This document shows, one piece after another, positions 43,754 to 58,969 of a stretch of 64,000 nucleotides of DNA. Position numbers and translations under genes: made by a program. Each line of letters opens with the position of its first letter. The stretch's first letter is position 1. Source of the stretch: Clostridia bacterium (GTDB lineage Bacteria > Bacillota > Clostridia > Christensenellales > Aristaeellaceae); the NCBI GenBank assembly GCA_017464305.1, contig JAFUDS010000017.1:23130-87129 (forward strand), written 5' to 3'. Under the pieces are notes generated by a model that was given only the letters and a program-made list of their open reading frames with translations, did no database searches and was not told the origin of the DNA.

Positions 43754-43768
43754 AACGACAGGGCATAC

Positions 43769-44527: not shown

Positions 44528-44529
44528 AG

Positions 44530-44600
44530 GAGCGCTTGGCTTGAGCGGTCTGAAACTGATAAGCAGGGAGTGAAACGCAACTCTGTTTTAGTTGAAGTGT
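44530..44600 (+). promoter_or_regulatory. Partial copy of the GGTCTGAAAC regulatory cassette
   Basis: Matches the first half of the cassettes at 49,045 and 53,676, including GGTCTGAAACT (44547-44557), then switches to a different promoter (44603). Confidence 0.7.
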
Positions 44601-44602
44601 GC

Positions 44603-44642
44603 TATAATCCCTTTAAATTCAAAGCCCAAAGGGCAGAAAGGA
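44603..44642 (+). promoter_or_regulatory. Hairpin-leader promoter module, copy 2
   Basis: TATAAT (44603-44608), then GCCC-AAA-GGGC (44624-44634), then AGAAAGGA. The distance from TATAAT to hairpin is 21 bases, identical to the HU and 54,316 copies. Confidence 0.8.
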
Positions 44643-44653
44643 CGTTGGAAGAT

Positions 44654-45202: not shown

Positions 45203-45234
45203 CTTTTACCCACAAAAAGAAAACCGCCCATGTG

Positions 45235-45513
45235 TCAACAGAAATATTCGATTTCATGAAAAAAGTCTTTCCACTTCATAATGACTTCATCGCTACGCGT
45301 TTCTATAACCGCCATGATATTTCGCAGTACCCTTTCAGGAATCCTGGAACGATTATTACTCAGCAAGCATTTTCCCCGACGTGTAATCCAGATTTTGGTA
45401 GCATTTTCCTACGGCATTCCCTGGGACACATGCACATGGATCGGCTCCAGCGGTTCATTTTCATTGGCCCAGAAATAGACCCAATACTGGCCGATCTTAA
45501 ATACTTGCGGCAT
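45235..45513 (-). pseudogene. DUF4160 protein interrupted by an in-frame TAG
   Basis: The start MPQVFKIGQYWVYFWANENE and PIHVHVSQG match DUF4160 (toxin-antitoxin-associated family). At 45,411-45,409 the frame meets TAG, then continues in the same frame for 57 codons with clear family sequence (ENATKIWITRRGKCLLSNNR, KWKDFFHEI). A single base change, or a sequencing error, explains it. TAG ends other genes here (for example at 34,828), so read-through is not assumed. It overlaps the upstream 90-residue gene by 17 bases. Confidence 0.8.
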
Positions 45514-45769
45514 ATTCCACTCCCCCCTCCTCAGCAAAGCGGATAATCAGGTGCGCGGTACTCTCTACAATATCCTTATAACGCTGCATATCTTCCTGAG
45601 AAAACCCATAAATATCCTGCCACTCATATTTGGGCAGATAGCATACAGCATGATGGAATCCATCTTTTTCGTCTGGTTTCTCAATGTAGACCTTTACCCG
45701 ACCATCGGGCAGAGTTTCAGAATGAACAATTTCCGTAGTATCATCAAGCGTCATAAATGGATACATCAT
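45497..45769 (-). CDS. Small hypothetical protein paired with DUF4160, 90 aa
   Basis: No family recognised. ATG 45769 lies nine bases from GGGAGG; an adjacent ATG at 45766 is also possible. It is acidic (GRVKVYIEKPDEKDGFHHAV, YGFSQEDMQRYKDIVES), soluble, and overlaps the DUF4160 frame by 17 bases, so the two were one unit, perhaps a toxin-antitoxin-like pair (inference). Its leader is duplicated at 57,280-57,465, where only the first 11 codons follow. Confidence 0.6.
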   Translation of the reverse strand: MMYPFMTLDDTTEIVHSETLPDGRVKVYIEKPDEKDGFHHAVCYLPKYEWQDIYGFSQEDMQRYKDIVESTAHLIIRFAEEGGVEYAASI

Positions 45770-45920
45770 AGTCAGGTTCCTCCCATCGAATTGCGCTTTC
45801 AGCAAGGCAATTATTTCACGGCATCCAACTCGACAAGTGGCGAGTTGTTGGCTCAAAGGCTAATGTATAATATAGCACGTAGCGTCAAATTTGGGAAGGT
45901 GAAACTCAAAAATTCAAGTG
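45770..45920 (-). promoter_or_regulatory. Structured leader of the 90-aa gene, copy 1
   Basis: Read on the minus strand: CAACTCG/CGAGTTG hairpin, then an ATTGC/GCAAT hairpin, then the GGGAGG site. A second copy is at 57,303-57,465. An AT-rich TATATT-like -10 lies near 45,870. Confidence 0.6.
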
Positions 45921-46042
45921 TTGGAGATAGAGGGAAAATAGAATATATCATCTGGGATTTTTCGTTGCGGGGAGAGAATTCCTGTGATATTCTTTAATCA
46001 GCTCTTCAGAAGAGCGCACAGGGTTTAAAGGAGATTCAGCAG

Positions 46043-46867
46043 ATGCAGTTTGGAATGCCGACTTTGGTAGAGAACCGGACGCTGGAGGAGAACGCTGCAC
46101 TGTGCAGCCGTCTTGGGCTCCAATTTATCGAATTGAATATGAACTTTCCGGAGTATCAGGTGGATCGGCTTGAGGAAACCGAACGATTGATTGAACTTGC
46201 GGAGAAAGCGGGAATTTACTATACAATTCACCTGGATGAGAACCTGAATATAGCGGATTTCAATCAGTTGGTAACGGATGCGTATCTGGAGACCATAAGA
46301 CGCTCTATCTGCGTAGCTAAAGCGCTGATCCCATTACGAGACCTGTATGGAGACGCTTCCCAGCCGCTGACTTTGAATATGCATATGAATCATGGAATCC
46401 ACATTACGTTGCCGGACCGGAAGGTTCAGATGTATGAGCGTGATTATGTAACGTACATGAGGGCATTTTCTTCGTTCCGCAATCTTTGTGAAAAGTGGAT
46501 CGGACAGGATGATATCAGGATCGTAATAGAAAATACCGATGGCTTTCGCGCATATGAGAAAAATGCTATTGAATATTTGCTGGAGAGCCCCGTTTTTGGG
46601 CTTACATGGGATATTGGCCATTCAAAAGCCATCCGCGAAATAGATGTTCCATTTATTCTGGAACACCAAAAGCAGTTGATTCATTTTCATATTCATGATG
46701 GAATGGAAGCACCTCCACGCAATCATCTTGCTCTGGGGGACGGAGAAATCAATTTGCGGGAAAGACTGAAAATGGCCGAAAGCAGAAATGCCAGGTGCGT
46801 TCTTGAAACAAAAACAATCACTGCATTGGAGCAATCCGTTCAATGGCTGCGGGAGAATTGCAGGTGA
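46043..46867 (+). CDS. Sugar phosphate isomerase/epimerase-like TIM-barrel protein
   Basis: A 274-residue AP-endonuclease-2-type TIM barrel. The metal ligands are visible in IVIENTDGF, LTWDIGHSKAIRE and FHIHDG, with the HLALGDGEI loop closing the site. Related proteins isomerise ketoses or act as inositol catabolic enzymes. Substrate unknown. Its ATG follows AAAGGAGA. The first 40 or so bases of this gene recur as fragments at 48,580 and 52,645. Confidence 0.85.
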   Translation: MQFGMPTLVENRTLEENAALCSRLGLQFIELNMNFPEYQVDRLEETERLIELAEKAGIYYTIHLDENLNIADFNQLVTDAYLETIRRSICVAKALIPLRDLYGDASQPLTLNMHMNHGIHITLPDRKVQMYERDYVTYMRAFSSFRNLCEKWIGQDDIRIVIENTDGFRAYEKNAIEYLLESPVFGLTWDIGHSKAIREIDVPFILEHQKQLIHFHIHDGMEAPPRNHLALGDGEINLRERLKMAESRNARCVLETKTITALEQSVQWLRENCR

Positions 46868-46944
46868 TTAACTCAACTGCAAAGGGATCTACCTCCCGAA
46901 TTACTGCAAAAGGTGCAAACTGGAATTCGCATAGGAGACTGCAC
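46868..46944 (+). repeat. Fragment of the small zinc-ribbon gene
   Basis: GAATTACTGCAAAAGGTGCA and the following GAATTCGCATAGGAGA resemble the second knuckle of the genes at 52,825 and 58,970. It leads straight into the DUF1653 fragment. Confidence 0.6.
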
Positions 46945-47079
46945 ATGACGTTTAAAGAGGCTGTCGGCGCAATCTCGATCGGGCACTATCGCCATTTTAA
47001 GGGCAACGAGTATGAAGTAATTGCGATTGCCCGTCATTCGGAGACAGAGGAAGCTTTTTCACGATCTGGTATGCACTAA
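46945..47079 (+). pseudogene. Truncated DUF1653 gene copy (44 codons)
   Basis: Codons 1-37 match the intact gene at 53,853 with few changes (MTFKEAVGAISIGHYRHFKG, then ARHSETEE), after which the sequence switches to an unrelated AT-rich tail and stops. The rest of the domain and the DUF4298 part are missing. The same GGAGACTGCACATGACG junction precedes both. Confidence 0.85.
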
Positions 47080-47134
47080 GGCCTTCATACCAAGATGGGA
47101 GCGCTCAGAATGAATGCTGGGCCGGAGGTGAAAG

Positions 47135-47827
47135 ATGATTCAGAATTTACGGGACCTGGGTGGTTTGAAAACGGCAGAGGGGAAAACAATCAAGCCAAAT
47201 TGCCTGATTCGATCCGCACATTTGTATCAGGCCACCGAAGGTGAACTTGCCGGTGTTTCTACAGTGATTGATCTGCGCACTCCAGGAGAGCGAAATCAGG
47301 CCCCCGATCAGACATGGCAGAGGGAATATCTTCCTTTGCCCGTGTGCACAGATGAGCAGGCAGGGATTAGCCATGAACGGGATGTCAGCGAACAATTACT
47401 GCCGGATTTTACATACCTATATGAAAGATTGATCGATGAATGCGCGGATTCATTCAGGACGATTGTAATGCAGATCATGGGACATGATTTTACCAAAGGG
47501 GCAGTGCTGTGGCATTGTACAGAGGGGAAAGACCGTTGTGGCTTAACAACCGCGTTGATACTGGAAAGCCTGGGCGTTGAACGGGATGCGATCATGGAAG
47601 ATTACCTCAAAACGAACATAGTCAACTTGCCCAAAGCGATTCGAATCCGTGAGCGGCTGATGACAACCCATGGGAAAGAGATGGCGGAGGAAGCATACCA
47701 AGCATATATTGCCGACGAAAGATACTTGAAAGCAGCTTGGTCGGCCATGGGCGCTGACTACATCAGCAAAAAGCTGAAAATTGATGAAGAAACCGTTGAG
47801 CGGTTTCGGGCAGCTGTACTGCATTGA
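47135..47827 (+). CDS. Tyrosine-protein phosphatase (Y_phosphatase3 family)
   Basis: A 230-residue phosphatase of the LipA/PtpB-like group. N-terminal NLRDLGGLKTAEGK, DLRTPGER, and the catalytic P-loop VLWHCTEGKDRCG with the nucleophilic cysteine near residue 128 and its arginine. The C-terminal helices are complete. Substrate may be phosphotyrosine or phosphoinositide. GGAGG precedes the ATG. Confidence 0.9.
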   Translation: MIQNLRDLGGLKTAEGKTIKPNCLIRSAHLYQATEGELAGVSTVIDLRTPGERNQAPDQTWQREYLPLPVCTDEQAGISHERDVSEQLLPDFTYLYERLIDECADSFRTIVMQIMGHDFTKGAVLWHCTEGKDRCGLTTALILESLGVERDAIMEDYLKTNIVNLPKAIRIRERLMTTHGKEMAEEAYQAYIADERYLKAAWSAMGADYISKKLKIDEETVERFRAAVLH

Positions 47828-47861
47828 ATCATTTGTATCATCGGGGAAGGAGAGCCGCGCG

Positions 47862-48566
47862 ATGTTCATTAGGGGATTTTCCATTGACTGGAAAGAGGTT
47901 AGCAGCGATAGCTATCTTCGAGATATAGACGCGTTGCATGAATTGGATTCTCTCCAATTCAAGAAGCCGATCACCTTCTTCGTGGGCGAAAATGGCAGCG
48001 GAAAATCTACGCTGCTGGAAGCGATTGCGATCGCTTATGGTTTTAACCCAGAAGGCGGGACACGGAATTATCATTTTTCCACCAAGGACACGCACAGTGA
48101 ACTCTGCGACGCGATTCGGCTGATTCGGAATCCTTCGAAAGCCAGATGGGGTTACTTTCTGCGGGCTGAAAGCTTCTACAACGTAGCCACTGCAGAGGAG
48201 CAATATGCAGAAGTTTCCAGAGACTATCATCGGAAATCCCATGGAGAAAGCTTTCTTGCAGTTGCTCAGGACAACTTCAACGGAAACGGCATGTACCTGT
48301 TGGACGAGCCGGAAGCGGCATTGTCGCCACAAAGGCAGTTAACTCTGATGCTCGAGATGAGCAATTGCGCAAGAGAAAACGCGCAGTTTATTGTGGTTAC
48401 GCATTCACCGATCCTACTGGGAATGCCGGATGCCGAGATCCTCAGCTTCGATTCTGGTCCAATTCACCCGATTGAATACGAAGAAACTGAGAGCTACAGG
48501 ATTACGGAGATGTTTATTCGGGACAGGAAAAGATTTCTGAACAGATTGTTGAGAGAAGATGAGTGA
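47862..48566 (+). CDS. AAA family ATPase (ABC/SMC-like AAA_23 type)
   Basis: A 234-residue single-domain ATPase. Walker A FFVGENGSGKSTLLEAI, Walker B GMYLLDEPEAAL, and a late VVTHSPILLG histidine switch; an ABC-like signature is replaced by RKSHGESFLA. Similar stand-alone proteins occur in defence or transport contexts; no partner gene is next to it. ATG 47862 follows AAGGAGAG; an upstream reading overlaps the phosphatase and is not favoured. Its 3' end is duplicated at 52,588. Confidence 0.85.
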   Translation: MFIRGFSIDWKEVSSDSYLRDIDALHELDSLQFKKPITFFVGENGSGKSTLLEAIAIAYGFNPEGGTRNYHFSTKDTHSELCDAIRLIRNPSKARWGYFLRAESFYNVATAEEQYAEVSRDYHRKSHGESFLAVAQDNFNGNGMYLLDEPEAALSPQRQLTLMLEMSNCARENAQFIVVTHSPILLGMPDAEILSFDSGPIHPIEYEETESYRITEMFIRDRKRFLNRLLREDE

Positions 48567-48792
48567 TGAAGGTAGGAGGCTTATCAGATACAGTTTGGAA
48601 TGGCGACTTTGGTAGAATCTGCAAAGGGATCACCCTCTCGCATTACTGCAACAAGAGCAAACTGGAATTCGTAAAGGAGCAGCGGAGTAGGGGTGTGGAC
48701 TTGAGTAATTCAGCCAGCAGCTTGACGCAGGTTGCTTTTTCATGATAGGATTGGACAGATTTTAGAGGAAGGGGCGGGAAGATGCGCAAATA
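48567..48792 (+). repeat. Recombination debris duplicated at 52,578-52,780
   Basis: Starts inside the AAA gene's last codons. In order: GTGATGAAGGTAGGAGGC, isomerase-gene start (CAGTTTGGAATGGCGACT), zinc-ribbon fragment (CATTACTGCAACAAGAGCA), then GGGTGTGGACTTGAGTAATT, then the TTGACG/TAGGAT promoter fragment. No intact gene. Confidence 0.8.
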
Positions 48793-48852
48793 AGGAGTTT
48801 TGATGTCAGGGACAGCCGCGGAAGCAATCACGGTTTATTTCAGGCGTCAAAA

Positions 48853-48881
48853 TTCCGGAGCGCAGCTTCCGGCCTTTTTTT
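48853..48881 (+). terminator. Probable terminator
   Basis: CCGGAGC with GCTTCCGG stem, then CCTTTTTTT. Confidence 0.7.
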
Positions 48882-48926
48882 GCGCCGCTCTGTCTTCGGA
48901 TTGACGCCTCCAAGGAGGTGCAGGAG

Positions 48927-49004
48927 ATGCTGACGGTTCAACATTTATCAATATTACACAACCAGGATTTACGGCCACTGATTCAGGATCTATCCTTTAC
49001 ATGA
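48927..49004 (+). pseudogene. N-terminal remnant of an ABC transporter ATPase gene
   Basis: ATG after AAGGAGGTGCAGGAG encodes 25 residues (MLTVQHLSILHNQDLRPLIQ and on) that match the beginning of ABC ATPases, then TGA. Walker A never appears. The following bases join to the NUDIX 3' fragment. Confidence 0.6.
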
Positions 49005-49016
49005 AGCGAAGTATCT

Positions 49017-49224
49017 AGCCAAAGAAAAGATATAAAGGAACTCATGGCTTGAGCAGTTTGAAACTAATAAGCAGGGATTGAAGCGCAACTCTGTTTCATC
49101 AGTTTCAGACCGTTTATTTAAACAAATGGTCTGAAACTGCCTAAAAAAGAATATAAAACGACCTTTTTCTTTGACAACTCGTCTAAAACATGGTAAGATC
49201 GTCAAAAATGCAGGAGGGGTTGTT
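49017..49224 (+). promoter_or_regulatory. GGTCTRAAAC regulatory cassette, copy A, with promoter
   Basis: 49017-49040 copies the NUDIX gene end. Then arms AGTTTCAGACC (49101-49111) and GGTCTGAAACT (49128-49138), promoter TTGACA (49171-49176), 17 bases, TAAGAT (49194-49199). The spacer contains CGTCTAAAAC. GCAGGAGG leads into the ATPase gene. Confidence 0.85.
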
Positions 49225-50664
49225 ATGAGCATCGAAGCGTTAACAGGTCGGGAAGAGGAGATCCGGCGGCTAACCCAATGTATGAACGAGACGAACGCAC
49301 AATTAGTGGTTCTATATGGCCGACGGCGCGTAGGAAAGACATTCCTGGTGAATGAATTCTTCGACGGACGGTTCGACTTTCTGCTTACCGGAGTATATAA
49401 CGAAAAAAAGGAAGTTCAACTGCGTCATTTTGCGGAGGAGCTGGCCAGTCATCTTCGGGCCGAAGTTCCTATTCCCAGGGATTGGTCGGAAGCATTTCAT
49501 CTGCTGGAGGAATACCTTTCCTCTCTCCCTGCGGAGGAAAAAAAGGTGGTCTTCTTCGATGAAATGCCCTGGCTGGACACCAAGATGTCCGATTTCCTTC
49601 CCGCCTTTGAATATTTCTGGAATCACTACGGCGCACTGACGCATCACCTCGTTTTTATCGTTTGCGGCTCCGCTTCCGCATGGATGACGAAAAACATTGA
49701 CAAGAATAAGGGTGGTTTATTTCATCGGAAAACCTGCAGTCTATTTCTGGAACCCTTTTCGCTCCACCAAACGGAACAATATCTTTTGTCGAGGGGGATC
49801 AGCTGGTCCCGATATGACATCGCGGAATGCTATATGATCCTCGGCGGTATTCCCTATTATCTCAGCCTCCTTACTTCCGAGAAGAGCCTTCATGACAATA
49901 TTGATAATCTTTTTTTTCGAAAACGGGCAGAATTGTGGGATGAGTTCGCCCAACTATATCGGACGATCTTTAGCAGCCACGAAAGCTATATTCGAATTGT
50001 CGAAGCTCTTTCTTCCCGTCGCCACGGGCTGCAGAGAAACGAAATTGCCGCGAAAGCAAGGATCGCGGATAATGGAAAGTTGTCAGAGATGCTGGAGAAC
50101 CTGGTGAATTCCGATTTCGTACGCATCGAGGCAATTTTTCAGGGGAGAAAAAGCGAACTCAGATACCAACTTCGGGATTATTATACCTGGTTCTATTTCA
50201 AATTCATCAAAGATTATCCTGGTCGGGATGAGCATTTCTGGAGGAACTCTTATCAAAGTCCGGCAAAAATCGCCTGGTGCGGCTTAACCTTTGAACAATT
50301 ATGCAAGGATCATATTCCACAAATAAAGCAAAAGCTTGGCATTGCTGGCGTACTGTCAGAATCTTCTTCCTGGCAAACCCATGGGGATGAGGAAAGCGAT
50401 GGCGCGCAGGTAGATCTGCTCATCGATCGGAAGGATCACGTCATCAATCTTTGCGAGATAAAATATTCATTGAATCAGTTTGTAATCGATAAAGATTATG
50501 ATCTGGAATTGAGAAATAAAATTGGCGCCTTCCTCCGTGCGACAAAAACCACAAAGAACATACAGAACACCATGATCACGACCTATGGCGTAAAGCAAAA
50601 CAAATACAGTAGCTTGATCAATACGCAGGTCACCCTGGATGATTTGTTTTCTCCCAGCCTGTAA
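49225..50664 (+). CDS. AAA+ ATPase with C-terminal PD-(D/E)XK-like domain (ATPase_2/DUF234 type)
   Basis: A 479-residue protein of the archaeal-type ATPase family. Walker A VLYGRRRVGKTFLV, Walker B VVFFDEMPWLD, sensor IVCGSASAWM; winged helix around 290-345; then DUF234-type C-terminus whose QVDLLIDRKDHVINLCEIKY resembles a PD-(D/E)XK nuclease core. Such proteins are frequent in mobile or defence regions; their real role is unknown. Expressed from cassette A. Complete ORF. Confidence 0.88.
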   Translation: MSIEALTGREEEIRRLTQCMNETNAQLVVLYGRRRVGKTFLVNEFFDGRFDFLLTGVYNEKKEVQLRHFAEELASHLRAEVPIPRDWSEAFHLLEEYLSSLPAEEKKVVFFDEMPWLDTKMSDFLPAFEYFWNHYGALTHHLVFIVCGSASAWMTKNIDKNKGGLFHRKTCSLFLEPFSLHQTEQYLLSRGISWSRYDIAECYMILGGIPYYLSLLTSEKSLHDNIDNLFFRKRAELWDEFAQLYRTIFSSHESYIRIVEALSSRRHGLQRNEIAAKARIADNGKLSEMLENLVNSDFVRIEAIFQGRKSELRYQLRDYYTWFYFKFIKDYPGRDEHFWRNSYQSPAKIAWCGLTFEQLCKDHIPQIKQKLGIAGVLSESSSWQTHGDEESDGAQVDLLIDRKDHVINLCEIKYSLNQFVIDKDYDLELRNKIGAFLRATKTTKNIQNTMITTYGVKQNKYSSLINTQVTLDDLFSPSL

Positions 50665-50930
50665 CAGCATATAACGTATCTTCGTATAACTGGAATTCGC
50701 AAAGGGACGTACATGACGTTATAGATGACATTTCGCTTTTAAAGAAGACGTTGTTTTTGCAAATGAGGTTTTTTTCTAAGTTGCGGAGTGAGAATGAAAC
50801 GGAAAAGGCCGTCACTCTGTTTCAGGGAGAAGGAAGAACTCGCATGATTTCACAGGGCTGAACATGATGAATCTTGAATGGTCTGCATGGCTCGACTGGA
50901 ATCCTCTCACTGAAAGAGATTGTAGCTTGA
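50665..50930 (+). other. Gene-free stretch with short repeat remnants
   Basis: Contains CTGGAATTCGCAAAGGGA plus TACATGACGTT (zinc-ribbon/DUF1653 junction scrap) near 50,690 and GACGTTGTTTTTGCAAATGA near 50,745, which matches 41,928-41,947 next to the sigma repeats. No gene supported. Confidence 0.5.
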
Positions 50931-50933
50931 TTA

Positions 50934-50980
50934 CAATGTATAACAATGCTGTTGCAATGTTAAACAATGTATGATATAGT
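50934..50980 (+). promoter_or_regulatory. Promoter overlapped by four phased CAATG repeats
   Basis: CAATG begins at 50934, 50944, 50955 and 50965 (spacing 10, 11, 10). TTGCAA (50952-50957), 17 bases, TATAGT (50975-50980) is the likely promoter of the AlbA_2 gene, so the repeats may be its operator. Confidence 0.6.
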
Positions 50981-51005
50981 TATTGGGAAGGGGGTGAGGT
51001 GGACC

Positions 51006-52400
51006 TTGAAGGTGCGCGAGTTATTTCCAGATGTGATTACGGAAGACACTGCCTACGAATTCAAAGCAATTTTATCTTCTGATCATCCAGTGAAATGGGC
51101 GAAAACGCTTGTAGGGTACGCAAATGGACAAGGCGGGCTTCTATTTATTGGCGTATCAAACGATCGAGAAGCTTTTGGATTGGATCTGGAGGAGATAGAT
51201 CGCACAAAGAATCTGATCGCTTTGGTGAACAATCGTCACATTTTTCCTCACATTAAATATAGTTATATGATGCGCAGTGTGGATGATAACGCGGATAGAT
51301 TTGTGCTTGTGATGAAGGTGTTGCCTTCCGAATCCGTGGTCAGATACAGAGAAGGCGATTTTAATGAAATTGTATATGTAAAAGGGGATGGGAACTCAAC
51401 TCCGGCAACCCCGGAAGAGATCATATCTCTTTCCAAACGGAAATATGGCGTGGATAATGAAACAACCACAGTCAAGTATAATGAATCGGAATGGACGGAA
51501 TATCTTGATTTATGCCAAACCTTCCGGAACGATCATTCTGTTCCTGGGGTGAAGGAACTACAGAATGAGGAGATTGTTACAAAAGATGGTTTTGTGAAGT
51601 CGGGTTTTTTGATGTTTAAGGATGGATATGATCGCGAGGATACACTGATCTGCTGCCGCCTTTGGCGAGGAAAAGATAAAACTGGGATAGTGCTCGATAA
51701 CCATCGATTCAAAGGATCATTAGCGGCGGTTTTTCAAAAAGCGCTCGCCTTTATGGAAAGAAACACAAAGATTGGATGGAGAAAGACCGCAAAAGGAGGC
51801 CGGGAGGAAATTCGGTCTTATCCCAGGGAGGCGATTCGAGAGGCGCTTGTTAACGCGATTGCTCATCGGGACTATGCAATTAACGGGACGCAGATTGATG
51901 TTGATATCTATGATGATCGGATAGATATTGTTTCCCCCGGTTCGTGGCTTCTGCCCAGAAAATATGAGGAGTATCCATTGGGCTCGATCCCATCTATCCG
52001 AAGGAATTCCATGATTGCAGCTTGCCTGGATGTTGCAAATTTGATGGAACGCGGCGGAACTGGATTCCAGACGATGTTCGAAGCTTATCGGGACACGGAG
52101 GATAGCAAGCAGCCAGGAGTATTCATTTATCCTGGGTTTTTGGATCTGCGTCTGTTTGATAAACTCTATCAGGAGCAATCACCCCTGCAGGGATTGACGG
52201 ATCAGGAAAAGATGATTCATGTTCTTCAGGAAGGACCGCAACCCGTTTCATATTTACAGACGCTCTCACAATATAGAAGCAGGGGGCCGTTTTTGAAAGA
52301 AGTTATCAATCCACTGATTGATCGGGGGATTATTTACCGGGAGGGGAATGTAAAGTCTCCAACAGCGGTGCTTCGACTGAAGGAAGACCTGAATCCATGA
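51006..52400 (+). CDS. AlbA_2 (Schlafen-type) DNA-binding / ATP-binding regulator
   Basis: A 464-residue protein. N-terminal AlbA_2 domain (about 5-125) with YEFKAILSSDHPVKWAKTLV, NGQGGLLFIGVSNDR; middle HATPase_c_4-like part with REAIREALVNAIAHRDYAIN, DIYDDRIDIVSPGSW and MERGGTGFQTM; C-terminal winged-helix-like 70 residues. Usually annotated as transcriptional regulators. TTG 51006 is preferred: AAGGGGGTGAGG precedes it, and ATG 50967 overlaps the promoter. Four direct repeats lie on its promoter. Confidence 0.85.
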   Translation: MKVRELFPDVITEDTAYEFKAILSSDHPVKWAKTLVGYANGQGGLLFIGVSNDREAFGLDLEEIDRTKNLIALVNNRHIFPHIKYSYMMRSVDDNADRFVLVMKVLPSESVVRYREGDFNEIVYVKGDGNSTPATPEEIISLSKRKYGVDNETTTVKYNESEWTEYLDLCQTFRNDHSVPGVKELQNEEIVTKDGFVKSGFLMFKDGYDREDTLICCRLWRGKDKTGIVLDNHRFKGSLAAVFQKALAFMERNTKIGWRKTAKGGREEIRSYPREAIREALVNAIAHRDYAINGTQIDVDIYDDRIDIVSPGSWLLPRKYEEYPLGSIPSIRRNSMIAACLDVANLMERGGTGFQTMFEAYRDTEDSKQPGVFIYPGFLDLRLFDKLYQEQSPLQGLTDQEKMIHVLQEGPQPVSYLQTLSQYRSRGPFLKEVINPLIDRGIIYREGNVKSPTAVLRLKEDLNP

Positions 52401-52574
52401 GAATCGCTGCGGATGATTCCGCAGGCTCAGGTTATTCAGGTGAAGTCCAGGTATTGTACTTGAAGAAAACACGTTGATAGAGATTGGAATGTAAAGGGAA
52501 TATAATATCGATTCATATACAGAGAAGATGATGATTGTACTGAATGCGAAGCTGAAGGATCATCCTTTCAGCGA

Positions 52575-52790
52575 AAATTCGGAACAGGAAAAGATTTCTG
52601 AACAGATTGTTGAGAGAAGATGAGTGATGAAGGTAGGAGGCTCATCAGATGCAGTTTGGAATGGCGACTTTGGTAGAATCTGCAAATACTGCAAAAAGTG
52701 CAAACTGGAATTCGCATAGGAGAGACAGTTTACGGGGTGTGGACTAGCGTAATTCAGCCAGTTTTTCATTTGCTTACAAGGTGGTTATGA
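52575..52790 (+). repeat. Second copy of the 48.5-kb debris block
   Basis: Copies the AAA gene end (AAAAGATTTCTGAACAGATT), the isomerase start (GATGCAGTTTGGAATGGCGA), and a zinc-ribbon scrap (TACTGCAAAAAGTGCAAACT), then GGGTGTGGACT. The remaining 52401-52574 has no recognisable gene. Confidence 0.85.
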
Positions 52791-52824
52791 GGTATACTGT
52801 ATGAATCAAAGAGGAGGAATTTGC

Positions 52825-53193
52825 ATGGGACTGATAGACAAGCTGAAGAGTCTGTTTCAGAAGAAGGAAGCACCAAAACCGGAACCTGTAATGATTCCGG
52901 AGAAACCGGCACGGTTAAAGAAGGCCTGTAAGGAATGCGGAAAGATGTTTTCCTATGATCCCAATTGGGACCACATCCCGAATTACTGCAAAGAGTGCAA
53001 GCAGAAGTTCGCAAAGGAGAGGGAAGAGAAGCAACGCGCTGGAACTCCCCGGAAGATCAAGCGCACCTGCAAACAATGCGGAAAGGTATTCACGTTTCCG
53101 AATACGCTGGAGCATTATCCCAATTATTGCAGCAATTGCCGGAAACAGCACCAGGCGGCGATGAAGGAGAAATACAGCAGGAAGAAGGCATAA
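52825..53193 (+). CDS. Small zinc-ribbon protein, copy 1
   Basis: A 122-residue protein of unknown function. A basic, proline-rich N-terminus (GLIDKLKSLFQKKEAPKPEP) is followed by two knuckles: CKECGK with YCKECKQ, then CKQCGK with YCSNCRK, each with a 15-16-residue loop, so two Zn sites. ATG 52825 lies after GAGGAGG; an upstream ATG (52801) has none. A copy with only a few changes is at 58,970. bcp follows after 17 bases. Confidence 0.85.
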   Translation: MGLIDKLKSLFQKKEAPKPEPVMIPEKPARLKKACKECGKMFSYDPNWDHIPNYCKECKQKFAKEREEKQRAGTPRKIKRTCKQCGKVFTFPNTLEHYPNYCSNCRKQHQAAMKEKYSRKKA

Positions 53194-53210
53194 GAATAGG
53201 AGGGCGCCAT

Positions 53211-53663
53211 ATGTTAGAAATTGGAACGAAAGCTCCAGAATTTAGTTTGCCGGATCAGAATGGCGAAATGCATTCGCTTTCTGACTATGAAGGGCAAAGA
53301 GTGATTCTGTATTTCTACCCCAAGGATATGACCAGCGGCTGCACCAAGCAGGCCTGCGGCTTTGCCGAACTCTACCCACAGATCAGAGAAAAAGGTGCTG
53401 TTGTGATTGGCATTAGCAAGGACAGTGTTGCGTCTCATAAGAAGTTTGAGGAAACACATGGCCTGCCTTTTACTCTGCTTTCCGATCCTGAAAAGCAGGT
53501 CATCCAGGTGTATGATGTATGGAAAGAGAAGAAGAACTATGGGAAAGTGACCATGGGGATTGTCCGAACCACATATCTGATCGATGAAAATGGGACGATC
53601 GTGCAGGCCATGGATAAGGTAAAGGCTTCGGATAATCCTACGCAGATGTTGCAGGCGCTGTGA
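53211..53663 (+). CDS. bcp: Thiol peroxidase of the BCP/PrxQ type
   Basis: A 150-residue peroxiredoxin that reduces hydroperoxides. Peroxidatic cysteine in FYPKDMTSGCTKQAC (about residue 46) with the resolving cysteine five residues on, plus DQNGEMHSLSDYEG and VRTTYLIDENG. GGAGGGCG precedes the ATG. It is downstream of the zinc-ribbon gene, probably one transcript. A scrap of its 3' end is at 43,908. Confidence 0.93.
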   Translation: MLEIGTKAPEFSLPDQNGEMHSLSDYEGQRVILYFYPKDMTSGCTKQACGFAELYPQIREKGAVVIGISKDSVASHKKFEETHGLPFTLLSDPEKQVIQVYDVWKEKKNYGKVTMGIVRTTYLIDENGTIVQAMDKVKASDNPTQMLQAL

Positions 53664-53669
53664 GGCAGG

Positions 53670-53845
53670 AACTTGGCTTGAGCGGTCTGAAACTGATAAG
53701 CAGGGACTGAAACGCAACTCTGTTTCATCTGTTTTAGACCATTTGCTTAAACAAACGGTCTAAAACTTCCTATATACGTACACAAAACGACCTTTTTCTT
53801 TGACACCTCGTCTAAAATATGGTGAGATCGTCAAAAATGCAGGAG
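53670..53845 (+). promoter_or_regulatory. GGTCTRAAAC regulatory cassette, copy B, with promoter
   Basis: GGTCTGAAACT (53684-53694), then arms GTTTTAGACC (53731-53740) and GGTCTAAAAC (53757-53766), then TTGACA (53800-53805), 17 bases, TGAGAT (53823-53828), spacer with CGTCTAAAAT. Compared with copy A, one C:G pair of the inverted repeat has become T:A. Confidence 0.85.
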
Positions 53846-53852
53846 GATGCAC

Positions 53853-54320
53853 ATGACGTTTGAAGAGGCTGTTGGTGCAATCCCGATTGGGCGCTATCGT
53901 CATTTTAAGGGCAATGAGTATGAAGTAATTACGATCGCCCGCCATTCGGAGACAGAGGAAATTATGGTGGTCTATAAGGCATTGTACGGTGATGGGGGTA
54001 TTTGGGTGCGCCCGGCATCCATGTGGAACGAGACCGTTGAACGAGACGGAAAGGCATATAAGCGGTTTTATCGATTGGACCGTATAGAACGGGTGGAAAA
54101 ATATGAGCGTTTGTTTGATGAGGCTTCTTCTTCCTATGATCCGGATACGCTTCGCTTGTTGAACGGGTATTATGTTTCCGGTGAATGGCGTGAAGACTAT
54201 GAGGCAGACGAAAGGGGTGAGCTGCCGCCTGACCTCAAACGCGGCGTATTATCGCAGGATGCATTATATGACTTACTGACGAGCGCAAAATTGGACGAAC
54301 GATGCTGCAATGTGCTATAA
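53853..54320 (+). CDS. DUF1653-DUF4298 fusion protein
   Basis: A 155-residue protein. Residues 1-75 are DUF1653 (GRYRHFKGNEYEVITIARHS, MVVYKALYGDGGIWVRP); residues 80-150 match DUF4298 (YYVSGEWREDYEADERGELP, PDLKRGVLSQDALYDLL). Neither part has an established function. ATG 53853 lies six bases from AGGAGG; ATG 53847 is too close. A truncated copy is at 46,945. Driven by cassette B. Confidence 0.85.
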   Translation: MTFEEAVGAIPIGRYRHFKGNEYEVITIARHSETEEIMVVYKALYGDGGIWVRPASMWNETVERDGKAYKRFYRLDRIERVEKYERLFDEASSSYDPDTLRLLNGYYVSGEWREDYEADERGELPPDLKRGVLSQDALYDLLTSAKLDERCCNVL

Positions 54321-54355
54321 TTCCAATAGTTTCAAAGCTCATAGAGCAGAAAGGA
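54316..54355 (+). promoter_or_regulatory. Hairpin-leader promoter module, copy 3
   Basis: TATAAT (54316-54321), hairpin GCTC-ATA-GAGC (54337-54347), AGAAAGGA, ATG after seven bases. Against HU, the third C:G pair has changed to T:A on both arms. Confidence 0.85.
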
Positions 54356-54362
54356 TGTAATG

Positions 54363-54767
54363 ATGGATTTTAGTTTGGATCAGGCCAAAGAATTGCTGAA
54401 CAAGGGAACAGCGGAGGCCCAGGAGTTAATCGCAAATCCTTCGAAAGTGGATGAGTTGCTGGTACAACTCGAAGAAAAGCTGAAGACTGTTCCCGCAATC
54501 GGAGAAACTCTTTCTGATCTGCCGGTAATGATCGCCATGATCAAAGCTTGGATTAAGAAGGAATACACGGTTGTATCTCCGAAAGTGATTGCGACCCTGG
54601 TAGGCGCGGTGCTTTATCTTTTGAAGAAAAAGGATTTGATTCCGGATAACATCCCAATCATCGGGATTGCGGATGATCTTGCTGTGTTGGGGTTGGCCTT
54701 AAAACTGTCTGAGCCGGAGTTGAAGGCTTTTGCTGAATGGAGAGATCGGCAGAAAGCGGAAATATAA
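54363..54767 (+). CDS. YkvA/DUF1232 family membrane-associated protein
   Basis: A 134-residue protein. The C-terminal half (about 70-115) is a DUF1232 domain with VLYLLKKKDLIPDNIPIIGI and ADDLAVLGLAL; the N-terminal half is a helical segment (LDQAKELLNKGTAEAQELIA). Function unknown; the family often lies near the membrane. Expressed from the third hairpin-leader module. A terminator follows. Confidence 0.85.
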   Translation: MDFSLDQAKELLNKGTAEAQELIANPSKVDELLVQLEEKLKTVPAIGETLSDLPVMIAMIKAWIKKEYTVVSPKVIATLVGAVLYLLKKKDLIPDNIPIIGIADDLAVLGLALKLSEPELKAFAEWRDRQKAEI

Positions 54768-54783
54768 TAAGCCCATGGCACAT

Positions 54784-54814
54784 AGCCGGTTGGAGAAATC
54801 CAGCCGGTTTTTGT
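54784..54814 (+). terminator. Rho-independent terminator
   Basis: CCGGTTGGA with TCCAGCCGG around GAAA, then TTTTTGTG. Related to the terminator at 43,769. Confidence 0.85.
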
Positions 54815-54940
54815 GTTATCGCGGGAATTGTAACAGTTTCTGATTTGGTAGGAATTGAGAAGCGTAAAGGAGAATTAATCAACGAGCTTCATCATAAACG
54901 ATGAGGTTTAAGAGAAGGAATCAGAATTGTAGGAGGATAT

Positions 54941-55684
54941 ATGAGGAAGACTCTTTCGGCCTTGCTGATGTTGGTAGTTATCATTATATCTGCTTCAGCA
55001 CAGGCAACAGACATAGAAGTGATTGGGCCGAATGTTAATTTTCGGGACGCTCCCCATGGAAAAGTGATCATGCGCCTGCCGGGAGGAGAAATTCTATCGG
55101 CTGTAGATGAAGCGTGGGCCAATGACACCCTCTGGTATCAAGTTCATTCTGAAAAATATGGCGATGGGTTTATATCAGGAGAATGGGCCAGACCTGTTTA
55201 CAACGGGATAACCATCTATGATCAGGATCACCCAGATCAGCTTCAGTATGTGACGGAGAATGCGGAATCCTTTTATCTTTCTTTGTACAGGTTTCTGTAT
55301 GAGAATGGATATTGCTATTGGGATCAGGCAGAAGACGTATGCACATTCCGTGTTTCAAATGGAAAGGGCGATGAAAGCATCGTTCAACCGATGCATAAAG
55401 TTGATTTGGTTACGATGCTGTTGGCAAATGGTTTGCTCGTTGATATGCAGGAAGCTGAAGTTTTGCTGAACGAAGAGGCATCGGATGAGGAAAAGTTAGC
55501 AGCTGCGGATTCCGTTCTTCTAAAGCACTATGGAACAGTAGATATGTGGAAGATTCTTATCTTTGGAGGCGTTGTTGATCAGGCGGAAACACATGTTCCG
55601 CATGGCATTCTCGAGAATGACGACCTGTGGCGGCTTGAAGCGATTCGCAGTCAGGTTGATCATGAATATATGGGGGCCAAATAA
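54941..55684 (+). CDS. Secreted protein with bacterial SH3 domain, 247 aa
   Basis: A signal peptide (about 1-22, ending SAQA) is followed by a SH3_3-like domain (about 24-85, VNFRDAPHGKVIMRLPGGE, then WYQVHSEKYGDGFISGEWA). The remaining about 150 residues are acidic and unrecognised. SH3_3 domains often bind peptidoglycan peptides. AGGAGG precedes the ATG. Only 23 bases separate it from the next secreted protein gene, so both likely act together outside the cell. Confidence 0.75.
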   Translation: MRKTLSALLMLVVIIISASAQATDIEVIGPNVNFRDAPHGKVIMRLPGGEILSAVDEAWANDTLWYQVHSEKYGDGFISGEWARPVYNGITIYDQDHPDQLQYVTENAESFYLSLYRFLYENGYCYWDQAEDVCTFRVSNGKGDESIVQPMHKVDLVTMLLANGLLVDMQEAEVLLNEEASDEEKLAAADSVLLKHYGTVDMWKILIFGGVVDQAETHVPHGILENDDLWRLEAIRSQVDHEYMGAK

Positions 55685-55707
55685 AGATTGAGGCTGTGGA
55701 GGTCGTA

Positions 55708-57156
55708 ATGAAAAAAAGATTATGGATTTCTTTGTTAGCGATGCTGACATTCTGTTTGATCACCATAACTGCTTCGGCAAACAGCTGGGGCCTTAGAAGC
55801 CAGACATTGCTTAATTACGTAATGAAAGACAAGGCTTGGGATGATTATTCCGCTGATGCGGAGTTTTATCAGCAGGGTATTCCGCTGACGGCGGCTGTAA
55901 TGCGCAGCAAGTATCATTCTGTGTTAATGATTGGGCGCAAGGAAAACGCTGGCAAAGGAACTGTTTGGACTTCGACGACCGCCGTCTATCAGCCGGGTGA
56001 AATGGATGCTGTTCCAAAGCTCACCTGCACAGAAAATACAGTGACCTTGCTTTATCCAGAATATGATTATGAGTTCAAATTCACCTGGGATGAGAGTCAG
56101 TTTCCAAATGGCGCTTTTTTATTGACTTCTGCAAAGAAAGCAGGCGCTCAGGTACAAATGGATTTGGAGGAACAGGTTTATCGGACAGATGAAAATTATG
56201 TCTGGCAGGTTCCGCCCATCAGGATAGAGGATTTTAACATATCGCTTTTTCCGGATACAGCGCAGCAGTTCATTGATATGAATCGCGTGTACGCCGCGAT
56301 AAATGATGCATCCAGATTCTGGAGCGATACTCGCGCCACGAAGAAGGCATTAAAATTACCGGTCTATTCTGCTCCGGATCAGAAAAGTTATCGTGCAGCG
56401 AAGGGAAAGGCGTCTGTGAATTTAAAAGGCGGAGCCATTTTACTGGCGACGCTGGATAACTGGGATTTGGTTGAATACGAAGTTTCGAACCGTACCCATC
56501 GTATTGGATGGATCGAAGGAGGCCATTTGGGTGATCCCGCGCCGATCTATTTCACAGATGTACCGGTAAACGGTGTAGCCTATCTGACAGATGATCCGCT
56601 CTGCAGTCAATATCATAGTTTTCAGGGCGACCAACTGCGTGATGTTCACCTGTTGGCCTACTTCAATCCGTTTTACGCATATGCGAAAGCTACTACATAC
56701 GAGAATGAGGCAGTATGGGGTTTTGTTCCTGTGGGACAATCACTCGATATGCCAGAGGAGAGGATAGACGCGGAGGCGACGAAGCAGCTCGTCGGGACAT
56801 GGGTATTCTATAGCGGCGGTGAGCTTACTTCTGAAGTGTTACGGCTCAAAGAAGATGGCGAGTGCGAAATGTTTGATCTGAGCGAAGAAGCGGCAAGTTC
56901 TATGGCCTGGCTGCAATACCCGCTGAAGGAGGACAAGCTTAGCAATGCTGACACACCAACAATAGGCAAGTGGTATGTGATCAACAGCATTGCGGAAAAC
57001 GGCTGTGATAAAACCTTGTTAATTGAGGTTCAAAAAACGTATCAGAGTTATGGAATCTATGACTTACAGACAGAAGATGCGACAGGCGATCTGAGCATGA
57101 CTCTTGTGTACGGAGAGGCTGGAGGAACATGGGTGCGTGTTCAGGACGATTTATAA
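55708..57156 (+). CDS. Secreted protein with SH3-like segments, 482 aa
   Basis: Signal peptide to about residue 25 (ITITASA). A long beta-rich body; about residues 210-275 resemble an SH3_3-type module (LPVYSAPDQKSYRAAKGKAS, then RTHRIGWIEGGHLG). A late part (about 350-480) has a lipocalin-like layout (LVGTWVFYSGGELTSEVLRL). No anchoring motif. ATG 55708 follows GGAGG; GTG 55696 is weaker. A fragment of this gene (56,935-57,025) recurs at 63,388. Confidence 0.72.
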   Translation: MKKRLWISLLAMLTFCLITITASANSWGLRSQTLLNYVMKDKAWDDYSADAEFYQQGIPLTAAVMRSKYHSVLMIGRKENAGKGTVWTSTTAVYQPGEMDAVPKLTCTENTVTLLYPEYDYEFKFTWDESQFPNGAFLLTSAKKAGAQVQMDLEEQVYRTDENYVWQVPPIRIEDFNISLFPDTAQQFIDMNRVYAAINDASRFWSDTRATKKALKLPVYSAPDQKSYRAAKGKASVNLKGGAILLATLDNWDLVEYEVSNRTHRIGWIEGGHLGDPAPIYFTDVPVNGVAYLTDDPLCSQYHSFQGDQLRDVHLLAYFNPFYAYAKATTYENEAVWGFVPVGQSLDMPEERIDAEATKQLVGTWVFYSGGELTSEVLRLKEDGECEMFDLSEEAASSMAWLQYPLKEDKLSNADTPTIGKWYVINSIAENGCDKTLLIEVQKTYQSYGIYDLQTEDATGDLSMTLVYGEAGGTWVRVQDDL

Positions 57157-57171
57157 CAAATGATCTATTGC

Positions 57172-57197
57172 CCGGCTAAAATCAGCCGGTTTTTTTG
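57172..57197 (+). terminator. Rho-independent terminator
   Basis: CCGGCT with AGCCGG around AAAATC, then T7. Confidence 0.88.
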
Positions 57198-57279
57198 TTG
57201 CAGGGAAAACAAGGTGAGTGAGTCAAGCAAAACAAGTAGAAAGCCCGCTCCAAGGGCTTTTTACGACGTTTCAGAATAG

Positions 57280-57465
57280 ACGTTTCTGTAGCATCAGACA
57301 CATCATAGTAAGGTTCCTCCCATCGAATTGCCCTTCCAGCAGGGCAATCTTTTTCTTGTACCCAACCCTACAAGTAGAGAGTTGTTGGCTCAAAGGCTAA
57401 TAGATAATATAGCACGCGGTGTCAAATAGGGAAGGGAGAACTAAAAAATCAAGTGTTGGTGGTAG
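57280..57465 (-). repeat. Second copy of the 90-aa gene leader with truncated start
   Basis: Minus-strand leader identical in plan to 45,770-45,920: CAACTCT/AGGGTTG and ATTGCCCT/AGGGCAAT hairpins, GGGAGG, then only MMCLMLQKRLF and a stop. So the promoter and leader were copied without the gene. Confidence 0.8.
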
Positions 57466-57506
57466 CGAAACATTTGGCAATTTCGAGAATTCCGGACAAA
57501 AATAAA

Positions 57507-57568
57507 TTGCGAAATTCGTGAAAAATAACTAAAATAGATTTGCGAAATTCGTGAATATCGTTTATAAT
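57507..57568 (+). promoter_or_regulatory. Promoter with direct repeats TTGCGAAATTCGTGAA
   Basis: The 16-base repeat occurs at 57507 and 57540, 33 bases (three helical turns) apart; each contains the palindrome CGAAATTCG. The second copy includes the -35 TTGCGA (57540-57545), 17 bases from TATAAT (57563-57568). Confidence 0.8.
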
Positions 57569-57597
57569 ACTCCCATTCGGAGGAGGAGCTGATATAT

Positions 57598-58950
57598 ATG
57601 TTGGAGCTCGAGCGCAAGATTTATCAGGAATTGCTTGAATGGAAGAGCAGATCGCAAGGGAAAAGCGCGCTTTTGATCGAGGGAGCGCGCCGTGTTGGAA
57701 AAAGTACGATCGCTGAAAAGTTCGCACGAGAACAGTATGATGATTATATTAAGCTTGATTTTGCTTTGGAAGGGCCGGATATCAGAAGAAACTTTGAAGA
57801 AAATATCGGACAGATGGATGTTTTTTTCCGAAACCTGTTTATTTTGAAGGGAAAGGAACTCCCAAGGAGAAAGTCACTTTTGATTTTTGACGAGGTGCAA
57901 TTGTTTCCTCTCGCCCGGCAGGCCATCAAGTATCTTGTTCAGGATGGGCGGTACGATTATCTTGAAACAGGCTCGTTGATCAGCATCAAGCGGAATGTAA
58001 AAGATATCCTGATTCCTTCCGAAGAAGAAAAAATCAAGATGTATCCGCTTGATTTTGAGGAGTTTCTTTGGGCGATTGGAAATAGGGTTACTATCCCGGC
58101 CATTTGGGACGCCTTTTACCGTCAGATCGCTTTGGGGGATCCAATACATCGAAAAATCATGGAACAGTTTCGTACTTATATGGCTGTGGGTGGAATGCCA
58201 CAGGCTGTCGTCGCTTTTGCGGAGGGAAACTCCTATCAGAGAATCGATACAGTCAAGCGGGGAATTTTGCAATTGTATGAGGATGATTTGCATAAAAATG
58301 ATGAATTATATGGAGAAAAGGCGTCATTGGTGTTCAAGACTATCCCAAAGCAGATGACAGATCATCAATCCCATTATATGTTTTCAGAGATTGATAAGAA
58401 TGCCCGCTACAAAAATTATGTGGACTCTGTGGAATTTATCGCGGATTCGATGATCGCAAACCGCTGCGCAAATGTATCCATGCCGGACGTACTGCTGTCA
58501 CAGTATGCAGATAACAGAAATTTCAAGCTATATATGAGTGATACCGGGCTGCTTGTTTCCCAGCTGCTGAAAAGCGGAGATGGTTCGAATGAAATTTATC
58601 GTGCCTTGATATACGATAAACTGGATGCAAACCTGGGAGCTGTTATGGAAAATATGGTGGCACAGATGCTGGTTACCAATCATCATGAACTTTATTTCCA
58701 TGAGTATGAGTACAAACCAGAAGATTCAAAGAAAGAAAAAAAATATGAGATTGATTTTCTGATTGCAAGAAATCAGCGTGTGTGTCCGATTGAAGTGAAA
58801 TCATCGGGGTATAAGAATCATAAGTCCTTTGACTACTTTATAAAGAAATACCCTATTCGGATCCCGGAGAGGTTCATTCTGTACACAAAAGATCTCAGAC
58901 AGGATGAGGGAGTCACATTTTTACCACTGTATATGGCGATGTGCTTGTAA
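57598..58950 (+). CDS. AAA_14 ATPase with DUF4143 C-terminal domain
   Basis: A 450-residue ATPase. Walker A LIEGARRVGKSTIAEKFA, Walker B SLLIFDEVQLFP, sensor LETGSLISI, then winged helix. DUF4143 with LYMSDTGLLVSQLLK and the nuclease-like EIDFLIARNQRVCPIEVKSS. These proteins are common in bacteria as accessory genes of unknown function. ATG 57598 follows AGGAGGAG. Two operator-like repeats lie on its promoter. The zinc-ribbon copy 2 follows after 19 bases. Confidence 0.88.
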   Translation: MLELERKIYQELLEWKSRSQGKSALLIEGARRVGKSTIAEKFAREQYDDYIKLDFALEGPDIRRNFEENIGQMDVFFRNLFILKGKELPRRKSLLIFDEVQLFPLARQAIKYLVQDGRYDYLETGSLISIKRNVKDILIPSEEEKIKMYPLDFEEFLWAIGNRVTIPAIWDAFYRQIALGDPIHRKIMEQFRTYMAVGGMPQAVVAFAEGNSYQRIDTVKRGILQLYEDDLHKNDELYGEKASLVFKTIPKQMTDHQSHYMFSEIDKNARYKNYVDSVEFIADSMIANRCANVSMPDVLLSQYADNRNFKLYMSDTGLLVSQLLKSGDGSNEIYRALIYDKLDANLGAVMENMVAQMLVTNHHELYFHEYEYKPEDSKKEKKYEIDFLIARNQRVCPIEVKSSGYKNHKSFDYFIKKYPIRIPERFILYTKDLRQDEGVTFLPLYMAMCL

Positions 58951-58969
58951 GCTTAGAGGGGGAATTTGA

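Follow-up and report, generated by a model that had tools for sequence, protein, structure and literature searches.

We analyzed a window of 64,000 nucleotides from a Clostridia bacterium (assembly GCA_017464305.1, contig JAFUDS010000017.1, positions 23,130 to 87,129), in which a cassette of about 180 bases stands in two complete copies before two unrelated genes. The first copy, c49 (49036-49217, + strand), precedes a gene for an AAA-PD(D/E)XK protein of the PADLOC family PDC-S27 (49225-50664, +), and sequence comparison makes it probable that the cassette is the self-operator of this gene, i.e., an array of half-sites and a promoter which the gene product is predicted to bind and through which it would repress itself. 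The second copy, c53 (53667-53846, +), a complete array and promoter ending at the AGGAGG of a DUF1653-DUF4298 gene, would be a captured array. A preliminary description of the window had called the cassette an operator/promoter element, and this designation is now well supported because many AAA-PD(D/E)XK homologues have this layout, though with another word.

The cassette and its copies in the window

The alignment of the window with itself by BLAST confirmed a cassette of about 180 bases at the two places first proposed (49,045 and 53,676), as well as a partial copy at 44,530. The copies c49 and c53 are 86.8% identical over 182 columns and share a gapless core of 174 base pairs (bp) with 23 mismatches. 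The partial copy c44 (44508-44588, +) consists of the 3' end of a NUDIX gene and the left portion of the cassette, which breaks off ahead of the inverted pair; it matches 49016-49096 at 89%, and its positions 44535-44588 match 53672-53725 of c53 at 98% over 54 bp. A further fragment, c43 (43899-43954, +), was absent from the preliminary description. It holds the 3' end of a peroxiredoxin gene copy and the first bases of the cassette, and is 86% identical to 53639-53694. Since c44 and c49 have the tail of the NUDIX gene in common, and c43 and c53 that of the peroxiredoxin gene, the cassettes have moved here along with bits of their neighbours.

Both full copies have the inverted pair as originally claimed, GTTTCAGACC-N16-GGTCTGAAAC in one and GTTTTAGACC-N16-GGTCTAAAAC in the other. 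From left to right, c49 comprises a decayed half-site AGTTTGAAAC (49055-49064, +), a half-site GGATTGAAGC (49075-49084, +) with the next one 27 bp on, the left arm of the pair (GGTCTGAAAC, 49102-49111, - strand), the right arm 26 bp on (GGTCTGAAAC, 49128-49137, +), a degenerate half-site assigned by its position, in phase at 26 bp (TAAAACGACC on the top strand, 49154-49163, -), and a half-site CGTCTAAAAC (49180-49189, +). The latter lies in the spacer of a promoter-like sequence, TTGACA-17-TAAGAT (49171-49199, +), in agreement with the proposed TTGACA promoter carrying a half-site in its 17-bp spacer. In c53 a half-site GGTCTGAAAC (53684-53693, +) stands out of the 26-bp register, and the array in register runs through GGACTGAAAC (53704-53713, +), the two arms of the pair (both GGTCTAAAAC; 53731-53740, -, and 53757-53766, +), a degenerate half-site again assigned by position (CAAAACGACC on the top strand, 53783-53792, -) and CGTCTAAAAT (53809-53818, +), which lies in the spacer of the promoter-like TTGACA-17-TGAGAT (53800-53828, +). 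The forward half-site that was said to belong to the cassette is intact at 53684 (c53) and 44547 (c44) only, and has two mismatches at 49055 in c49. When one mismatch at most is allowed, the half-site motif has 12 matches in the window for 5.05 expected, and 1 of 100 shuffles had as many.

The paired C/T and G/A change in the inverted pair, which had been taken to show selection on symmetry, is genuine. Taken alone it is weak evidence for selection: c49 and c53 differ at 8 of 60 half-site positions and at 15 of the remaining 114, and since the half-sites have changed as much as the remainder, two copies in one window are no proof of selection on symmetry. Selection on the layout is clear only once homologues are compared. 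The central 36 bp of the two copies have 4 mismatches if one is inverted and 6 in forward orientation, which is too few to decide on an inversion.

As an alternative, the inverted repeat might function at the RNA level, as an attenuator, terminator or riboswitch, or be a repeat like those of clustered regularly interspaced short palindromic repeats (CRISPR). It forms a 36-bp palindrome that starts with GTTT and ends with AAAC, as some CRISPR repeats do, and other hairpins can be traced in it on visual inspection. This explanation is nevertheless very improbable, since the inverted repeat lies upstream of the promoter-like sequence, the homologues retain the spacing and the repetition of half-sites, and the genes of a second family, PDC-S01, have direct repeats instead. 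No match to Rfam was found at gathering scores in 43500-54500. A CRISPR repeat was rejected as a candidate: the genome has two copies of the pair, 4.6 kilobases (kb) apart, and no spacer array.

Regular arrays upstream of PDC-S27 homologues

The comparison included 52 further loci from named genomes (Lachnospiraceae, Oscillospiraceae, Treponema, Bacteroidales, Fibrobacter and others), of which 49, near-duplicates included, were scored and 3 were dropped because of short upstream regions or partial genes. Half-sites were searched for on the basis of the layout, after plain expectation-maximization motif discovery fell into poly-A. An inverted repeat with a score of at least 11 was found in 34 of the 49 upstream regions of PDC-S27 homologues, compared with 10/84 intergenic neighbours, 10/143 controls overall and 11/980 shuffles; the 143 control genes flank the PDC-S27 loci on genome contigs and do not come from the PDC-S01 genomes. 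Pooling and de-duplication reduced 129 upstream regions to 104 non-redundant ones, 78 of which have such a repeat. The thresholds were set while viewing the first PDC-S27 and PDC-S01 sets, and the clean re-test is that of the viral PDC-S01 set given below.

Distances between matches in the 49 genes have maxima near 27 and 77 bp in inverted and at 52 bp in direct orientation, hence a regular array with one half-site every 26 bp, each flipped. With 1 bp of play, the array score reached at least 6 in 43 of the 104 genes at a period of 26 bp, in 36 at 27 bp, 22 at 25 bp and 11 at 28 bp, and in at most 4 at any other period from 16 to 41. At period 26, this score was reached by none of 104 shuffles and by one of 143 neighbour genes, where the array is the one located 3' of the PDC-S27 gene of locus L135. 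The members that pass have 3-7 copies of the half-site upstream of the start codon, alternating every 26 bp (2.5 helical turns), with the consensus T-T-G-T-C-n-n-A/T-A-T-C (TTGTCnnWATC). Homologues of this layout, many of them from gut bacteria, range from Clostridia to Bacteroidales, Treponema and Fibrobacter. Relative to the start codon, the arrays of the 43 genes extend from a median position of -143 (start of the first site) to one of -43 (end of the last); promoters were located in the window only. In the clearest cases the top 9-mer occurs 4-7 times in alternating orientation, as at locus L128, where TGTCTAAAT is found at -182, -156, -130, -104, -78 and -52. Proteins at least 45% identical to that of the window have a 26-bp array in 38 of 62 cases.

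Relatives of PDC-S27 also occur on six contigs classed as viral (L256-L261), and three of the five readable upstream regions (L256, L259, L261) have an inverted repeat scoring at least 11. Two PDC-S27 loci of one genome (L093 and L094, contigs 2 and 9 of G040) have near-identical upstream regions with equal scores, perhaps because of a recent duplication or an assembly effect.

The array belongs to the AAA gene

Pfam agrees with the gene types first assigned behind the two cassettes, an ATPase_2 protein and a protein with DUF1653 and DUF4298; the start of the latter gene at 53853 (53853-54320, +) fits the AGGAGG better than one at 53847. Among the 12 DUF1653 relatives of the genus with a readable upstream region, only that of the window has an array (array score 6, inverted repeat score 12), the other 11 having scores of at most 3 and 8. 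In contrast, the AAA-PD(D/E)XK homologues of the genus often have long inverted repeats upstream, with differing sequences. Since arrays are found at the AAA homologues and at none of the 11 other DUF1653 relatives, the cassette belongs to the AAA gene and c53 is a secondary copy, and the product of the AAA gene is the likeliest binder. This second full copy is a duplicate of the array and occupies a place that in DUF1653 relatives is filled by other upstream sequence. In genome G006, one of these relatives lies directly behind a zinc-ribbon gene.

The cassette had been suggested to define a small regulon, which holds in the narrowest sense, i.e., two complete copies, both in the window. Elsewhere the motif is at background, and a wider GGTCTRAAAC regulon was rejected: the genome-wide search found no enrichment at other promoters, with 11 sites, 6 of them inside the cassettes, for 7 with the reversed pattern. 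A DNA search of the host genome (2.53 megabases, 68.6% complete) found no cassette-like DNA outside the window, another found none in 99 other genomes of relatives, and the pattern of the inverted pair was absent from 44 other genomes of the genus. Five loci on viral contigs have the 17-base promoter stretch, with a match to the cassette of 17-18 bases only. The preliminary description had stated that a restriction to these copies, with downstream genes that never co-vary, would suggest simple duplication; in the host genome only these copies were found, and by that part of the test simple duplication explains the second copy.

Whether c53 has a regulatory effect is a separate matter, which does not touch the arrays found across the family. 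It is quite possible that this copy is a passive local duplication without such an effect, one of many repeat relics, given that 43.8-59.4 kb is rich in duplicated segments, that half-sites are kept no better than the rest between the copies, and that the genome has no further ones. Still, c53 retains the array sites, the -35 and -10 elements and the junction between cassette and AGGAGG before an open gene, and through it the DUF1653-DUF4298 gene is probably subject to the predicted repressor of the AAA gene.

Words within and between genomes

Within a genome the words vary from one paralogue to the next, and this suggests control of each gene by the protein it encodes. For five paralogues of the host genome the upstream region could be read, and each has a different top word (GTTTCAGAC, TTCCGACGA, TCCCCAGAA, TTTTGGCGG and GGACTTTTG). 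In 10 genomes that encode several PDC-S27 proteins, the upstream region of a gene contains a mean of 3.85 matches to the gene's top word when one mismatch is allowed, and the regions of its paralogues a mean of 0.11; two sites are shared in only 2 of 106 ordered pairs of paralogues, and the host genome accounts for one of these pairs. Counted without mismatches, the words are found 124 times within 230 bp upstream of 50 genes and 10 times in 255 kb of flanking sequence, where about 2 would be expected, and 9 of these 10 are just 3' of the PDC-S27 gene. A gene with its own family-specific palindromes, able to spread, is also what RAYT genes and repetitive extragenic palindromic (REP) sequences represent. 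REPs number tens to hundreds per genome, whereas the words of PDC-S27 are concentrated upstream of the gene, as counted in near flanks only.

Arrays could also be read by a separate transcription factor instead of the AAA protein. Small operator-bound regulators of defence loci exist, and one of them, RptR, is described as binding three direct repeats (PMC12255303). However, the change of word between paralogues of one genome would require as many factors, no regulator gene common to the loci was noticed, without a systematic search, and the PDC-S27 protein itself has a predicted winged helix with suggestive covariation (see below). We therefore regard a separate factor as improbable.

Several observations count against the array being a self-operator. 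The upstream regions of 61 of the 104 PDC-S27 genes are below the threshold for the 26-bp array, and among proteins less than 45% identical to that of the window only 5/42 pass, though 32/42 have a strong inverted repeat. The array of the window has one degenerate half-site and one off register, and its half-sites are no more conserved between c49 and c53 than the rest. Words also recur across genomes, the 50 array calls comprising 35 distinct central 9-mers and 11 of the calls sharing the core GTCGGAA, and L164, a paralogue in the host genome, has two sites within one mismatch of the word of the window. Finally, arrays downstream of the gene that drive no gene need a separate explanation.

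The PDC-S27 protein and its predicted winged helix

The protein encoded at 49225-50664 has 479 amino acids, of which residues 5-475 match positions 3-473 of the 474 of the PDC-S27 profile (E 1.6e-191, PADLOC), and is predicted to combine an AAA/STAND-like ATPase, a winged helix and a PD-(D/E)XK domain. It is our candidate for the binder of the array. Its Pfam match is ATPase_2, and no NCBIfam match was found for three proteins. In an alignment of 48 rows, G32-R35, G37-T39, D112, E113, E411 and K413 are invariant and D397 is nearly so. The predicted PD-(D/E)XK assignment rests on the D397/E411/K413 pattern, the PDC-S27 match and the published description of the family (PMC12988326). A structure model (predicted local distance difference test, pLDDT, 89.8) gives residues 1 to about 326-330 an SSO1545-like STAND/AAA+ ATPase fold, and the predicted winged helix is well supported in this model. 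The recognition helix proposed from the secondary structure of the model and from covariation at 282-286 spans residues 284-295 (codons at 50074-50109, +).

The bases of the half-site covary with the start of this helix, in a manner that is suggestive only. The call set consists of the 50 array calls minus five off-register or weak ones (L123, L094, L139, L222, L215), i.e., 45 rows, 35 of which are under 85% identity; the dropped L222 would fit by eye. Among these 35 proteins, half-site position 3 is associated most strongly with residue 285, and the strongest association at any position is that of residue 283; both residues lie at the beginning of the recognition helix. Across the 45 rows, A at position 3 accompanies V285 (6/6), F286 accompanies ATT at positions 6-8 (6/6), and D282 accompanies GG at positions 6-7 (14/14), D282 being also seen with other words. 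For the V285, F286 and D282 associations, independent pairs, on a tree built without the columns of the winged helix, gave means of 3.5, 2.0 and 2.5 pairs changing the same way and none opposed; the residues were picked after viewing the consensus data.

Other parts of this analysis are less favourable. None of the tests on independent pairs reaches 0.05, each having too few pairs, and the strongest column (N283 with T at position 4) has 0.3 pairs going the same way and 2.7 with no difference. V285 is absent from three of the nine rows with A at position 3, and for half-site positions 6, 8, 9 and 10 most of the best-associated columns fall elsewhere than in the winged helix. The top-ranking segment of a partial Mantel scan (285-296, r 0.222) is that of the recognition helix, but stays below the 99% permutation level of 0.232. 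A direct reading of the array by the PDC-S27 protein seems likely.

A second family with direct repeats

The window encodes a second AAA-nuclease, an AAA_14-DUF4143 protein (57598-58950, +) that matches the PADLOC profile PDC-S01 nearly over its full length (E 2.7e-103). Two copies of a direct repeat GCGAAATTCGTGAA, 33 bp apart (57509-57522 and 57542-57555, both +), precede a TATAAT-like sequence upstream of it. Direct repeats at 32-33 bp were found at 22 of 29 PDC-S01 members of the genus, compared with 3/145 shuffles, 2/143 neighbour controls and 3/104 PDC-S27 regions. A held-out test with fixed criteria used PDC-S01 genes of viral contigs, of which 22 of 32 loci were new and non-redundant (8 duplicates, 1 short locus and 1 without a 5' match were dropped). 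It was passed by 17 of the 22 genes, for an average of 0.8 in shuffles; at exactly 33 bp and without play 15 pass, and at most 2 do at any other exact period from 15 to 59.

In the model of the PDC-S01 protein (pLDDT 89.7), helices 236-254 and 271-283 are followed by strands 287-293 and 304-313, which may form a winged helix. In the PDB it best matches STAND, MalT and ORC proteins, at low TM-scores that range from 0.24 to 0.39 among the first five. One contig (contig 42 of G042) has divergent PDC-S27 and PDC-S01 genes (L169 and L057), with each one's own kind of array between them.

A model for the arrays and its relation to known systems

In the proposed self-operator, the winged helix of the PDC-S27 protein would read its own half-site. 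The inward and outward spacings of the array are equal, hence the protomers could line up in a regular two-fold-symmetric row, which would cover the -35 and -10 elements, the array of the window overlapping its promoter, and repress the gene. For PDC-S01, the direct repeats would allow a head-to-tail row. Cross-control among the paralogues of one genome would be prevented by their different words. The least certain step concerns infection, where release from the array would derepress the gene and free the nuclease; an array-bound form that serves as the resting state of a defence nuclease is speculative. A broader proposal, which we advance as tentative and would not ourselves bet on, is that both families are one-protein switches, STAND/ORC-like ATPase-nucleases that polymerise on a self-addressed array (alternating at 26 bp or head-to-tail at 33 bp) with a different word for each paralogue. 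The row would be at once repressor, nuclease store and sensor, infection would free nuclease and promoter by stripping, modifying or outcompeting the array, and arrays in direct repeat would let genes come and go and hand control to neighbours.

Both families are described as ATPase domains fused to members of the PD-(D/E)XK group and as abundant defence candidates without validation (PMC12988326), and we suspect the PDC-S27 gene of being a candidate anti-phage gene. The same source gives 39,480 occurrences of PDC-S01 and 8,065 of PDC-S27, summed over the archaea and bacteria of its genome set, and their validation is pending (PMC12988326). The proteins of the window match these families; the published descriptions, in their passages on the two families, mention neither operator arrays nor self-regulation (PMC12988326). 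A literature search that left out supplements, preprints and most subscription journals yielded no description of such arrays for either PDC-S27 or PDC-S01 genes.

The principle of self-repression via repeated sites is already known from AbiEi, Rv2827c and RptR, according to the accounts cited here. AbiEi is a winged-helix antitoxin that represses its own promoter through two 23-bp inverted repeats with 3 bp between them, a spacing of about 26 bp, and the promoter of Rv2827c has four repeats (PMC7319586). The likeness consists in a winged-helix protein of a toxin-antitoxin module of the abortive-infection type that represses itself via inverted repeats; in these systems the regulator is a separate antitoxin, whereas PDC-S27 is predicted to be reader, ATPase and nuclease in one, with words that vary among paralogues. 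RptR, the repressor of a restriction-modification defence island, also represses its own promoter via repeated sites, but is described as a small alpha-helical dimer that binds TAGCTA and near variants, unlike an ATPase-nuclease such as PDC-S27 (PMC12255303).

Residues 1 to about 330 of the PDC-S27 protein share their fold with STAND/ORC-like ATPases (SSO1545, PABY2304, MalT, ORC/Cdc6, CED-4 and nucleotide-binding leucine-rich repeat receptors), from which it differs by the C-terminal PD-(D/E)XK domain and by sites at its own gene with a fixed, alternating 26-bp spacing. The DNA sites bound by MalT and by ORC proteins are repeated or inverted. IniR, whose ATPase domain is predicted to be SSO1545-like, is described as a regulator (PMC5760070). 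The operator grammar found across the family supplies, for each protein, a specified DNA ligand along with a reporter assay and a specificity code that can be tested, and under our proposal sensor, repressor and effector are one molecule. Array capture is moreover a suggested route by which an unrelated gene, here that of DUF1653, comes under the control of a defence candidate.

Array recombination and neighbouring repeats

Arrays are also found 3' of the gene, in direct repeat, at 3 of 102 PDC-S27 genes. At two of these loci (L231 and L233) the next gene is convergent and the 3' copy drives nothing. Five genomes of one Bacteroidales genus match the flank of the L233 site at 93% or more: three have an array on each side of the PDC-S27 gene (G1265, G1273, G1279), G1281 has a solo array and G1280 a solo half-site. 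The flank was matched in 13 of the 18 genomes of the genus, and of the weaker matches the one examined (G1271, 69%) has neither PDC-S27 nor the word. The states of this site imply that arrays also recombine, and fit either a deletion between direct repeats or the insertion of an array-gene unit.

The arrays could also be primarily the termini or recombination sites of a mobile unit with a single gene, that of an AAA ATPase and nuclease, which would insert beside direct array copies or be excised by way of them; promoter function would then be secondary, and c53 a leftover solo array. The three states at the Bacteroidales site would fit, as would the downstream arrays of L231 and L233 that face a convergent gene, and the window, where c49 and c53 are direct repeats accompanied by fragments at 43.9 and 44.5 kb. 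Yet downstream arrays are found at only 3 of 102 PDC-S27 loci, and homologous recombination between direct repeats yields solo states without any activity of the protein, so that we consider such a unit unlikely as the primary role and retain the self-operator. Direct copies of the array flank the PDC-S27 gene at L231, L233 and L250-L253, with solo-array and solo-half-site alleles at the same site in relatives.

The region 43800-59400 of the window is a mosaic of duplicated fragments in the self-alignment. It includes two copies of a zinc-ribbon gene (52810-53194 and 58955-59339, 93%), the pairs 48516-48717/52577-52761 and 43827-43900/48719-48792, and a duplication of the start of DUF1653 (46933-47052/53841-53960); two duplication junctions (53841-53846) coincide with the AGGAGG. 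A promoter-like module made of GCTATAAT, a GCCC..GGGC-like stretch and AGAAAGGA is repeated at 38887-38932, 44597-44642 and 54311-54358, before HU-like, flavin-reductase and DUF1232 genes. Finally, a short tandem repeat with an 11-bp unit, AGGTCGAAAAA, occupies 41938-42025.

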